NCBI RefSeq assembly: GCF_026151205.1 | Contig: NC_087082.1 | Coordinates: forward strand, 18,445,401 to 18,509,400 | DNA from: Bolinopsis microptera | Lineage: Eukaryota; Ctenophora; Tentaculata; Lobata; Bolinopsidae | Length of the DNA stretch: 64,000 nucleotides | Direction of reading: 5' to 3' | Shown: in pieces, positions 16,212-27,297 of the stretch | Layout: each line of letters begins with the position of its first letter | Numbering within the stretch: position 1 is the stretch's first letter | Notes under the pieces: generated by a model | Told to the model about the DNA's origin: nothing | The model's database searches: none | What the model saw: the letters and a program-made list of their open reading frames with translations, nothing else | Position numbers and translations under genes: made by a program

Positions 16212-18038
16212 CTAGCCTTTCCTTTTTCCTTTATCTTTTTCCAAGATATTTTTTGAATTAAAATCCTCGTTTTGAGATGTTTCGCATTCTTCAGGAATGG
16301 TTGTCAATATCGTTTGCGTAATACTGAATTTGCTCGCGAAAACTTTTCCTGTTAGGAAAATTTTAGAATATTCAGTTTCTGTTTTATTCAATGTGGCGGA
16401 ATTCTTTTTTGTGATATCTGATTTTGAAGCAGAATCCAAGTCCATAGTATCATCATTTTTGTGCAAAAAAGTAGAATCTTCCTTGTTGACAGTTTTGTTA
16501 TTATTACAAGTTCTGATTTCTTCATTTTGTCCTGACAGCTCATTTGCATTGAAAGCGGATTGCGGAGTCATGGCGACGTTTCTTTCCACATCTCTTTTCT
16601 TTCTTATAGTTCTAGCGAATTTGTTTATCGATAGTAAACATCGTCTTATATAAGACATGTAAAATAGAGATACCCAATATCTAATTTTCTTTACCATCAA
16701 CTTGATTGTCACGATTATGTAATCATGATATAGAATGGGATTTATAACAGAATTTATTGGTAGAATCACGATCGAAGATATTGGATACAAGGCTGTAGCA
16801 TCCATTAATTCAAAAGAATGCAACATACACACCGATATAAAAGGGACCCAACAAAAGAAATCTGTCGCAATTATGAGGGCTATTTGAAGATTGGATTCCT
16901 CTTTATCTCTTGAGCGTCTATTTTGGGCTTTGTGATTGCACATTCTAGCTCGTTGTTTTGAGCTCTTTGTAAAGAACAAAACCTTGCTGTAGCAGATAAA
17001 TATGATGGTGAAACACACAAAATACAGGGTTAGATTTGACCATACATAAACTTTTTGTGGGTCTTCTCTTGATACAAAGTATTTGAACAGACAAACGCCA
17101 TCATTGCCATAAAAGTGAACTTTGCGTCTCCCTATGCCTCCATATTGGTTTGAAAACATTGGGCTTATCAAACTATCGATTTTTGCCCAAGTGTACACTG
17201 CAGAGTCAACGAGTCTTCCATAATACTTGCTTATCTTGTTAATGTGCATGTCTTTGGTCACAAATGCTGGAAATATTGTAATGTTTGGATTATATGTCAT
17301 GCCATTGACAAAGATATCCTCATATCGGACCATTAAGGGGATATAGGATAGACAAAATGATGCAATTGACATTATCGCGATGAAGATGAACATTTTTGCA
17401 GCTGCATTTTTGGATGTCAGTTTTTGGACTTTGATGATACCGATAGCCCTAAATATGCTAAGAACTGTCATTGAAAAGAGGGATATTTGACCACCGAATG
17501 AACTGAACACTCCCAAGAAAGCACACCCATCACTGGATAACCAATTATATTTTTCTTTACAGTATGATTCCGCAAAGATGACTGAGTCTAAAATAGCAAT
17601 GGTTAACAGGTACAGTCCCGTTATTAGATCCCCAATATGAATGACAGTTGTCAGAGCTTTATTGTTCAATGCAGACGTAAAATGTCTGGTTGCCAGGTGT
17701 CTAAAATTCTTAAAAAGTTTGACAGAGTTTAGGATAACTGCTGCACAACCAACGACCCAACTGAAAACCTTTAGAGAGAGTTTTGAAATAATTGTTGTTC
17801 TACAGTCCTCATTGCACTCGTCGGTGTAGTCAGCACAATCTATTTTCCCATCACATTTCTGGCTCTGTCCAATGAAGCGTTTTGAAGATATGCATAAAAA
17901 GTTGTTAATACATGTATCTTCATCTGAGCTATCGCCACAATCGTCTACCAAATTGCAAACTTTGTCATAATCGACACATCTATCGTTGTTGCAGAGAAAT
18001 ATGTTATTTTGATACCGTCCACTTTTCTTATTTTTATT
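16212..18038 (-). CDS. Receptor last exon, C-terminal part: two LDLa modules and the 7TM domain
   Basis: The open frame follows the TAA at 18039 without a frame change. It begins with an LDLa (CNNDRC...[10 protein letters not shown]), then a second (CISSKRF...[14 protein letters not shown]). Counting from 17951, membrane segments lie near residues 60-80, 100-125, 143-172, 185-208, 303-327, 355-378 and 387-409. Class A marks: Cys143 at the top of TM3 with Cys287 in a long second extracellular loop, FCWVPF in TM6 (CWxP) and NPILY in TM7. The DRY position reads F-R-A, keeping Arg but not the acid. A tail of about 170 residues rich in Ser/Thr/Asn follows. The longest uninterrupted piece of the gene. 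Confidence 0.9.
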   Translation of the reverse strand, partial: NKNKKSGRYQNNIFLCNNDRCVDYDKVCNLVDDCGDSSDEDTCINNFLCISSKRFIGQSQKCDGKIDCADYTDECNEDCRTTIISKLSLKVFSWVVGCAAVILNSVKLFKNFRHLATRHFTSALNNKALTTVIHIGDLITGLYLLTIAILDSVIFAESYCKEKYNWLSSDGCAFLGVFSSFGGQISLFSMTVLSIFRAIGIIKVQKLTSKNAAAKMFIFIAIMSIASFCLSYIPLMVRYEDIFVNGMTYNPNITIFPAFVTKDMHINKISKYYGRLVDSAVYTWAKIDSLISPMFSNQYGGIGRRKVHFYGNDGVCLFKYFVSREDPQKVYVWSNLTLYFVCFTIIFICYSKVLFFTKSSKQRARMCNHKAQNRRSRDKEESNLQIALIIATDFFCWVPFISVCMLHSFELMDATALYPISSIVILPINSVINPILYHDYIIVTIKLMVKKIRYWVSLFYMSYIRRCLLSINKFARTIRKKRDVERNVAMTPQSAFNANELSGQNEEIRTCNNNKTVNKEDSTFLHKNDDTMDLDSASKSDITKKNSATLNKTETEYSKIFLTGKVFASKFSITQTILTTIPEECETSQNEDFNSKNILEKDKGKRKG

Positions 18039-27000: not shown

Positions 27001-27297
27001 TACAAAATAAGTCTTGTGTTCATTATCTTAAATGAAGTTGAAGTGATATGACAAAGAGGAGCGGCAATCAGCATGGCTAAAGTACCATGCAGCCTTTTTA
27101 ATTTAAGGGAAAATCATTTTGTTTTTCTGAGCCATAGATAGTTAATGATTACTACTGCTTAAAAAACAGATTGATTTAATAAAAGAATTTTAGAAACATG
27201 ATTTAAAACATGTGGATAAAATTTAAAACGAACGCTCACCTGTTTCGTAAGTCAAATGAAACAGCCAACACACGAGAGCACCAACAAGTAAATTCAT
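16212..27297 (-). CDS. Multidomain G-protein-coupled receptor (signal peptide, LDLa x2, TSP1, SRCR, LDLa repeats, 7TM)
   Basis: Exon model on the minus strand: 27240-27297, 26745-26858, 24808-24933, 21875-22066, 21242-21309, 20739-20869, 20045-20289, 19812-16212. Phases agree at every junction (1,1,1,1,0,2,1), which is strong support for one gene. The protein would be a plasma-membrane receptor with a large modular ectodomain. LDLa plus rhodopsin-like 7TM is the plan of GRL101-like and relaxin-type receptors; TSP1 and SRCR modules in front are unusual. Ligand and coupling cannot be inferred. The last exon carries a frame change near 18905-18925 and an in-frame TAA at 18039-18041, so the locus may be a young pseudogene or contain sequence errors. 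Introns 2 and 3 hold transposon debris. Confidence 0.8.
18039..19812 (-). CDS. Receptor last exon, N-terminal part: Cys-rich ectodomain, frame broken
   Basis: Acceptor TTTCAG at 19813-19818. The frame runs from 19812 to a TGA at 18902; the continuation is one frame over from about 18925 ([17 protein letters not shown]) to the TAA at 18039. LDLa-like modules are visible near 19430-19270 (ending [16 protein letters not shown]) and 18830-18690 ([20 protein letters not shown]). Alternatives to damage are two introns of about 65 bp: GTGAGC..GAG near 18970-18903 and GTGGAC..AAG near 18085-18020; both preserve frame but have weak acceptors or donors. A one-base indel explains the first break more simply because the bridging residues look coding. 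Confidence 0.75.
20045..20289 (-). CDS. Receptor exon 7 (end of SRCR domain)
   Basis: Acceptor AACACAG, donor GTAAGT at 20039-20044, 245 bp, entering phase 2 and leaving phase 1. It completes a Trp codon with the previous exon and encodes the second half of an SRCR-like fold ([18 protein letters not shown], resembling the C-x-G-x-E...C block), then links to the Cys-rich exon. Confidence 0.8.
20739..20869 (-). CDS. Receptor exon 6 (SRCR core)
   Basis: Acceptor TTTTCAG, donor GTAAGG, 131 bp, phase 0 to 2. It encodes [20 protein letters not shown], the diagnostic SRCR block (A-x-V-x-C-x-x-L-G-Y). Confidence 0.85.
21242..21309 (-). CDS. Receptor exon 5 (start of SRCR domain)
   Basis: Acceptor ATTACAG at 21310-21316, 68 bp, phase 1 to 0, donor GTTACA (weak). 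It encodes [20 protein letters not shown], like the first strand and G-x-V turn of SRCR domains. The donor is the least certain border in the gene. Confidence 0.6.
21875..22066 (-). CDS. Receptor exon 4 (thrombospondin type 1 repeat)
   Basis: Acceptor TTTCAG, donor GTGAGT, 192 bp, symmetrical phase 1-1. It encodes [20 protein letters not shown], then RxRMC and CNAKKCP: the W-x-x-W, C-S-x-x-C-G-G-G-x-x-x-R layering of TSP1 domains with six cysteines. A self-contained shuffled module. Confidence 0.9.
22067..23129. other. Receptor intron 3, right of exon 4, no confirmed exon
   Basis: AT-rich intron sequence. A stretch at 22632-22713 is open and ends in GTAAGC but its entry phase does not fit exon 3. 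No other feature stands out. Confidence 0.5.
23234..23945 (+). pseudogene. Non-LTR retrotransposon reverse transcriptase C-terminal remnant (copy B)
   Basis: Same remnant as at 4564, here uninterrupted by the Tigger-like element. It includes [25 protein letters not shown] and a final [14 protein letters not shown] end, with frame breaks. It lies in receptor intron 3. Confidence 0.75.
24808..24933 (-). CDS. Receptor exon 3 (LDLa module)
   Basis: 126 bp, phase 1-1, acceptor TTAG, donor GTTTGT. LDLa with [16 protein letters not shown]. It has two extra codons near its end compared with copy A (120 bp) and TAG instead of CAG at the acceptor. Confidence 0.8.
25089..26419. mobile_element. TAGG-ended inverted-repeat element, copy 1 (1.33 kb)
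   Basis: Absent from copy A, which reads straight through ACCATATTATGTCAAG. The left end is TAGGTAGTGCACCATCGA and the right end on the reverse strand is AAGGGGGTGCACGATAAA. A 7-bp CCATATT flanks both sides (25082-25088, 26420-26426). A shorter relative lies at 51114-51714. No transposase; the inside contains CCCTAA-rich sequence and GCGCG-rich blocks. Confidence 0.8.
25275..25365. repeat. Degenerate telomere-like CCCTAA tract
   Basis: Interrupted runs of AACCCTAACCCTAACC inside the TAGG-ended element. Interstitial and degenerate. Confidence 0.7.
26745..26858 (-). CDS. Receptor exon 2 (LDLa module)
   Basis: 114 bp, phase 1-1, acceptor CAG, donor GTTTGT. Encodes [15 protein letters not shown] then [16 protein letters not shown], a canonical LDLa with the calcium-binding DGSDE motif. 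Same length as in copy A. Confidence 0.85.
27240..27297 (-). CDS. Receptor exon 1 (signal peptide)
   Basis: ATG at 27297, then [19 protein letters not shown] with a hydrophobic core, ending at donor GTGAGC in phase 1, which matches exon 2. An upstream in-frame ATG exists but would put a long non-signal sequence in front. Copy A has one more codon (ATA) here. Confidence 0.8.

Follow-up and report, generated by a model that had tools for sequence, protein, structure and literature searches.

Within a 64,000-nucleotide stretch of the Bolinopsis microptera genome (NC_087082.1; C11:18445401-18509400; hereafter the window, 39% GC), the minus strand bears an eight-exon gene (window positions 27297-16212) whose predicted product is a modular receptor. 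All splice sites are GT-AG and the reading frame is continuous over all seven junctions, the start phases of exons 1-8 being 0, 1, 1, 1, 1, 0, 2 and 1 (Table 1). The encoded order is a hydrophobic leader, two LDLa modules, TSP1, an SRCR-like module spread over three exons, cysteine-rich linkers with five LDLa modules, and a rhodopsin-class seven-transmembrane region (7TM). The leader of exon 1 was judged hydrophobic by eye and is a putative signal peptide. An initial annotation, made from the sequence of the window, had described eight minus-strand exons with matching phases as a single phase-consistent gene model. The exons and their phases were borne out, and the model as a whole holds at the junctions but not inside exon 8, which contains a frame slip and an in-frame TAA. 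The 1-1 symmetry ascribed to the exons applies to exons 2, 3 and 4 individually; the SRCR exons (1-0, 0-2 and 2-1) are symmetrical only as a three-exon unit. The phase-1 modules fit exon shuffling.

Table 1. The receptor gene, its interruptions and its tandem copy in the window
Feature	Position	Strand	Remarks
Exon 1: start codon and hydrophobic leader	27240-27297	-	GT-AG; starts in phase 0, ends in phase 1; frame kept in the copy at 7830-7890
Exon 2: LDLa 1, phase 1-1	26745-26858	-	PF00057; protein identical in copy B; similar exons precede sister genes
Exon 3: LDLa 2, phase 1-1	24808-24933	-	PF00057, 27.6 bits (cut-off 24.1); present in sisters
Exon 4: TSP1, phase 1-1	21875-22066	-	PF00090, 37 bits (cut-off 21.6); similar exons in sisters
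Exon 5: start of SRCR-like module	21236-21309	-	Splice sites and phase; same exon, including the donor GTGCTT, in several sisters
Exon 6: core of SRCR-like module	20739-20869	-	PF00530 over exons 5-6 at 20.5 bits, cut-off 26.1 not reached; also in sisters
Exon 7: end of SRCR-like module, with enlarged loop	20045-20289	-	No Pfam match alone; C6 and C13 sisters without the enlarged loop match PF00530 to profile position 82
Exon 8 (interrupted): linkers and five LDLa, then 7TM, tail and stop	16212-19812	-	Frames of 316/306/608 codons; in copy B one 1214-codon frame with five LDLa stretches and 7tm_1
Seven hydrophobic segments of the 7TM	16743-17768	-	Seven peaks of at least 1.6; two weaker ones outside
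One-base frame slip	18905-18959	-	Frames overlap here; one 1-base indel against the closest sister
In-frame TAA	18039-18041	-	Read through at eight sister loci, each with a single frame of ~1194-1230 codons
Duplicated segment	4460-14826		Matches 23127-32589 in pieces
Copy B, exons 1-3 (7890-7830, 7440-7327, 6921-6802)	6802-7890	-	Exons 4-8 beyond the left edge of the window

LDLa, TSP1 and 7TM domains

When the joined model was compared with Pfam, two candidate mini-introns of exon 8 (see below) being left out, LDLa was found in seven stretches (1.6e-25), together with TSP_1 (2.2e-8) and 7tm_1 (2.8e-15). These three families also exceeded the Pfam cut-offs when the open reading frames of the exons were taken singly. 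Of the four families by which the initial annotation had proposed to check the protein, PF00057, PF00090 and PF00001 were therefore recovered over their cut-offs; PF00530 (SRCR) was not, as described in the next section.

The 7tm_1 match (PF00001) reached 58.6 bits in the window copy, against a curated cut-off of 30.5, and 56.3 bits in a tandem copy of the gene (copy B). The class A motifs NPxxY and CWxP are represented by NPILY and CWVP, respectively, and a YGNDGVC motif resembles the YGTNGVC of RXFP1. The best match of the 7TM part in PDB was RXFP1 (chain 7tmw; 4.1e-10), closely followed by an LDLa match to LRP2 (3.3e-9) and by LHCGR (3.5e-9). On its 7tm_1 score, its motifs and its seven hydrophobic segments, the predicted 7TM is that of a rhodopsin-class (class A) G protein-coupled receptor (GPCR). 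Pfam found no leucine-rich repeat (LRR) family in the joined model at E values up to 10, nor in copy B at E values up to 1, and its results for these two sequences contained no GPS, which makes the protein neither an LGR nor an adhesion GPCR. In the intact sisters, the last two LDLa modules directly precede the 7TM. The linkers of this exon look alike by eye, but as repeats they are not significant, 739 to 1365 of 2000 shuffles scoring as high in five comparisons. A single-sequence structure prediction of the 608-residue part was discarded (mean pLDDT 38.7).

The module encoded by exons 5-7

Given alone, exons 5-7 of the window copy matched PF00530 with 20.5 bits over profile positions 8-48 of 100, below the curated cut-off of 26.1, and Pfam did not list SRCR for the full-length joined model of this copy. 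The C6 and C13 sisters, whose loop is shorter, gave 26.0 bits each over profile positions 8-82, while copy B and the C1 and C3 sisters gave 18.6, 17.7 and 16.2 bits, another family ranking first in the C3 sister. For the C6, C13 and C3 sisters, the end of exon 7 and the codon spanning the junction of exons 6 and 7 were placed manually, following the other copies. Lack of any SRCR match had been named beforehand as an outcome that would speak against the architecture; what was found lies halfway, the match being below the cut-off in the window copy and near it in two sisters.

When exons 5-7 were used as a query against the genome, 10 of the 71 scored matches overlapped PF00530 matches of the same genome (E 1.6e-5 to 0.009). 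With a small CD163-based profile, 3 of 5000 shuffles scored as high as the window copy (1 of 3000 in a second run). On these two results the module is significantly similar to true SRCR domains. For exon 7 alone the corresponding figure was 570 of 5000; having no Pfam match either, exon 7 by itself was rejected as an SRCR domain. A PDB search with exons 5-7 returned seven weak, unrelated matches and no SRCR chain. Canonical SRCR domains have six or eight cysteines. The module has four, kept in all six aligned copies, and the full conserved set is not present; the lost and the kept cysteines would fit whole disulfide pairs. We take the module as a divergent SRCR domain that would have lost some of the usual disulfides.

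Sister genes in the host genome

The genome searched comprised 264.65 Mb in 232 contigs, about 13 of them large; ctenophores have N = 13, the M. leidyi genome measures 247.97 Mb and B. microptera has the larger chromosomes (PMC11797021). Searches of the genome gave no match to zf-C4, a zinc finger that ctenophore nuclear receptors are not known to carry, and none to GH6, a marker of tunicates; 14 control genomes gave none either, so that both absences are tentative. A 608-residue 7TM query gave 617 first-look candidates, 72 of which were scored; the 72 7TM matches, like the 150 SRCR matches, are lower bounds. Fifty-four of the 72 lay within single frames of 1000-1300 codons and, judging from the 617 first-look candidates, the LDLa-7TM family may be very large. 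Collinearity was assessed at the 16 closest 7TM loci, which correspond to the top 17 of the 72 matches, two C13 pieces being counted as one locus and the remaining 55 matches not being used; 9-12 kb were allowed between neighbouring exons. At 11 of these loci, exons 4, 5, 6 and 7 precede the 7TM with order and strand conserved; six of the 11 also keep exons 2 and 3. The 11 loci are spread over C11, C13, C6, C3 and C1. Intact sisters lie, for example, at C11:20.53, C11:5.03 and C6:17.97 Mb. The presence of collinear sister genes on five chromosomes speaks against exons 1-3, or the TSP1 and SRCR exons, being a separate gene. It also upholds the joint LDLa/TSP1/SRCR/7TM architecture of the initial annotation, with the qualification that SRCR is sub-threshold in the window copy. 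SRCR and TSP1 matches assigned to other genes do not appear in the exon lists behind this count. Also excluded was a weak match resembling exon 6 (C9:2180607, E 0.0037), which precedes the C9:2.18 Mb 7TM by 3 kb; that locus was counted as having none.

Splice sites and phases were kept in the sisters wherever the splice search located the exons; the search gave wrong pieces for exon 7 of several diverged sisters and for exons outside the retrieved loci. Among sisters keeping the arrangement, 7TM identity to the window copy goes down to 74%. The arrangement occurs in a young cluster located on a single chromosome. A 7TM tree was built with 26 of the 72 matches, those with the 7TM in one piece (C13:10.02, C11:20.00 and C9:2.49 Mb were left out); the 12 with SRCR exons fell on one side of a branch with a support of 92/88, which is below the program's mark for strong support. 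For the closest exon 8 sister, at C11:20.50 Mb, no exon 4 or exon 5 match was found upstream; this sister may have a different 5′ end.

At four of the 72 7TM loci, all of them outside the subfamily, a same-strand canonical SRCR match was present within 15 kb on the upstream side. One of the four also had a downstream SRCR match, and SRCR on the opposite strand was seen at none of the 72. Random placement, for which the lengths of C2, C4 and C10 were guessed, gave 0.17 such loci on average and never four in 1000 trials; two of the four loci look like near copies of each other, with equal spacing and scores. Given canonical SRCR upstream of other 7TM loci, the SRCR-7TM pairing may have had more than one origin. 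Canonical SRCR just upstream of other 7TMs of the family was noted at C7:16546148-16560448 (plus strand), C5:5.67 and 5.99 Mb, and C12:9.25 Mb.

Interruptions in exon 8

Exon 8 of the window copy is not open: it is divided into three stop-to-stop frames, the first of which starts 40 bases inside the intron. Beyond the frame slip and the TAA, no further stop or slip was found in it. The closest sister exon 8 (C11:20.50 Mb) is 99.69% identical to it (3601 aligned bases, 11 of them mismatched, and a single 1-base indel) and is open over 1213 codons. As sequenced, the window copy cannot yield the whole receptor; it is either a recent pseudogene or the carrier of two assembly errors.

The closeness of exon 8 to this intact sister, and the lack of any other stop or slip, are what would be expected if the interruptions were sequencing or assembly errors in a functional copy. 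This is possible but somewhat doubtful, since it requires two independent defects within 3.6 kb, yet a 4380-base retrotransposon frame of the same window (see below) is open, and two other examined family members, at C13:10.02 Mb and C11:20.00 Mb, are broken as well. The window copy would also be intact if the interruptions were tiny introns of 65 and 66 bases: GT-AG ends are present, and excision of both mini-introns produces a single 1469-residue frame. However, the two stretches are exon-like in composition (0 of 96 and 8 of 96 intron windows, respectively, score higher), the remaining introns of the gene measure 232-2741 bases, and the sisters read through both sites in one frame. Mini-introns, scarcely credible as the source of the interruptions, were rejected on the exon-like composition and the open sister frames.

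Tandem copy B

The tandem copy lies in a duplicated segment (Table 1); its exons 4-8 are found further left in the genome, and its exon 8 is open. A duplication of exons 1-3 alone, placing them before a different gene, had been considered; this reading was dropped when the remaining exons of copy B were found left of the window. In comparison with the window gene, copy B has coding indels of 3 and 6 bases. Identity is 98% in exons 1 and 2 vs 94% in their flanks, but in exon 3 it is 95.0%, below the 98.1% of the sequence on either side. Within the window, copy B runs into an open Ty3-like gag-pol frame (positions 1-4380, minus strand; reverse transcriptase, RNase H, integrase and protease), which adjoins the left end of the duplicated segment and runs off the window. 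Left of copy B, at C11:18425484-18430531 (minus strand), there is a third LDLa pair resembling exons 2 and 3, with no TSP1 match nearby; it may represent a third gene of the tandem, or a remnant of one.

Selection on the ectodomain and the 7TM

The ratio of nonsynonymous to synonymous substitution rates (dN/dS) was compared pairwise among seven intact sisters on C11, which gives 21 pairs that are not independent. The dN of the exon 8 ectodomain exceeded that of the 7TM in 21 of 21 pairs. Values of dN/dS ranged from 0.43 to 0.80 in the ectodomain vs 0.25 to 0.71 in the 7TM, the ectodomain being higher in 18 pairs. In the 7TM, dN/dS was below 1 in every pair; this region is under purifying selection.

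Comparison with known receptors

The LDLRR-GPCRs of Ciona have one to ten LDLa repeats, no LRR and a 7TM like that of the INSL3/relaxin receptors, and have undergone a lineage-specific expansion (PMC2396169). They share with the window family the arrangement of LDLa, without LRR, before an RXFP-like 7TM. The available part of that report does not mention TSP1 or SRCR, and Ciona belongs to a different phylum; the likeness seen is one of architecture. The predicted window receptor resembles a Ciona LDLRR-GPCR to which two modules, TSP1 and SRCR, have been added. GRL101 and the type C2 LGRs also have many LDLa modules before an LGR-like 7TM but carry LRRs (PMC8286064, PMC6267866), none of which was found in the window receptor. 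RXFP1 and RXFP2 share LDLa, a related 7TM and the YGxxGVC motif in the second extracellular loop; unlike the window receptor, they have a single LDLa followed by LRRs, and neither TSP1 nor SRCR. Their LDLa module is described as necessary for activation.

Before the 7TM of adhesion GPCRs, SRCR and LDLa have been reported in amphioxus, and SRCR in sponge (PMC2246102, PMC4302439). Those receptors are adhesion-class and typically have a GPS, whereas the window receptor is predicted to be rhodopsin-class, with no GPS found. In Mnemiopsis leidyi, SRCR genes are expanded and occur in unusual combinations; the legend of Fig. 3 of that report names TSP1, LDL and 7TM among the domains drawn, and overlap with the present genes is possible (PMC11797021). 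No description of LDLa-TSP1-SRCR on a rhodopsin-class receptor was found in the titles and abstract openings of the literature searched.

Nature of the receptor

The window gene is probably one copy of a multigene class A receptor subfamily with an RXFP/LGR-like 7TM without LRRs, the intact sisters of which would be G-protein receptors with a ligand-binding modular ectodomain. As predicted at these loci, the LDLa-TSP1-SRCR-7TM architecture is real, unusual and repeatedly kept, and is new beside the LRR-less LDLa-7TM receptors already known. The ectodomain of the intact sisters would bind an extracellular protein, lipoprotein, matrix or microbial ligand, the membrane-proximal LDLa array would relay this binding to the 7TM, by analogy with the LDLa of RXFP1, and the 7TM would couple to a G protein at the cell surface. 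TSP1 modules elsewhere bind matrix, glycans or microbes. SRCR modules are described as doing the same (PMC11797021), and by analogy with both the ligand would most likely be an extracellular protein complex or a foreign surface; a ligand of the matrix or immune type, as had been suggested at the outset, may be envisaged.

Several observations weigh against this assignment. Five of the 16 closest loci lack part or all of exons 4-7 (three have some SRCR exons only, two have none), and TSP1 or SRCR exons with no scored 7TM match occur at C3:20.5 and at C11:19.73, 19.81 and 19.84 Mb. The SRCR score was below the curated cut-off in every copy tested, and a profile-profile test of the module gave a probability of 54.5% over just 25 columns. 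Like dN, dS was higher in the ectodomain (19 of 21 pairs), so that faster amino-acid change there is not in itself proof of selection; some of the difference could stem from gene conversion, or from a lower mutation rate in the 7TM half. Finally, both the receptor architecture and the one-gene model are predictions from genomic sequence. This last point, and the existence of duplicated exons 1-3 and of stray TSP1/SRCR exons without a scored 7TM, would suit exons 1-4 or 1-7 being a separate gene for a secreted protein that lies before a 7TM gene. However, the same order, strand and phase recur before 11 of 16 dispersed 7TM loci, and inspection by eye showed, in exon 8 of the window copy, no start codon placed to open the 7TM frame alone, which makes two separate genes very improbable. 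It is also unlikely, although to a degree that deserves consideration, that the protein is a peptide-hormone receptor like RXFP1 or GRL101 in which TSP1 and SRCR act as spacers and not as recognition modules. The solved chain nearest to its 7TM is RXFP1, with the glycoprotein hormone receptors not far off, and the reported need for LDLa in RXFP1/2 activation agrees with this possibility; against it, LRRs, the hormone-binding part of those receptors, were found neither in the joined model nor in copy B, and so many recent copies would be unusual for a hormone receptor.

If the subfamily is indeed one of class A receptors with a ligand-binding modular ectodomain, and each intact sister is expressed as a single protein, SRCR and TSP1, modules that the accessible literature describes on adhesion-class receptors, would have been gained by receptors of the rhodopsin class. 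With its kept arrangement and its young single-chromosome cluster, the family would offer testable candidates for the as yet unknown receptors by which comb jellies sense chemicals or pathogens.

Other elements

Upstream of the gene, at window positions 29256-30704 (plus strand), lies a 483-codon frame resembling those of long interspersed nuclear elements, with a reverse transcriptase domain (RVT_1, 1.4e-17). A tandem array of ~3 kb with a period near 88 bases occupies positions 35830-38951, its shifted copies being 80-94% identical, and two perfect six-base tandem arrays, mutually inverted, are found at 52006-52355 and 61596-62194. Elsewhere in the genome, at C1:10929854-10939430 (minus strand), TSP1 matches are densely arrayed within long open frames.

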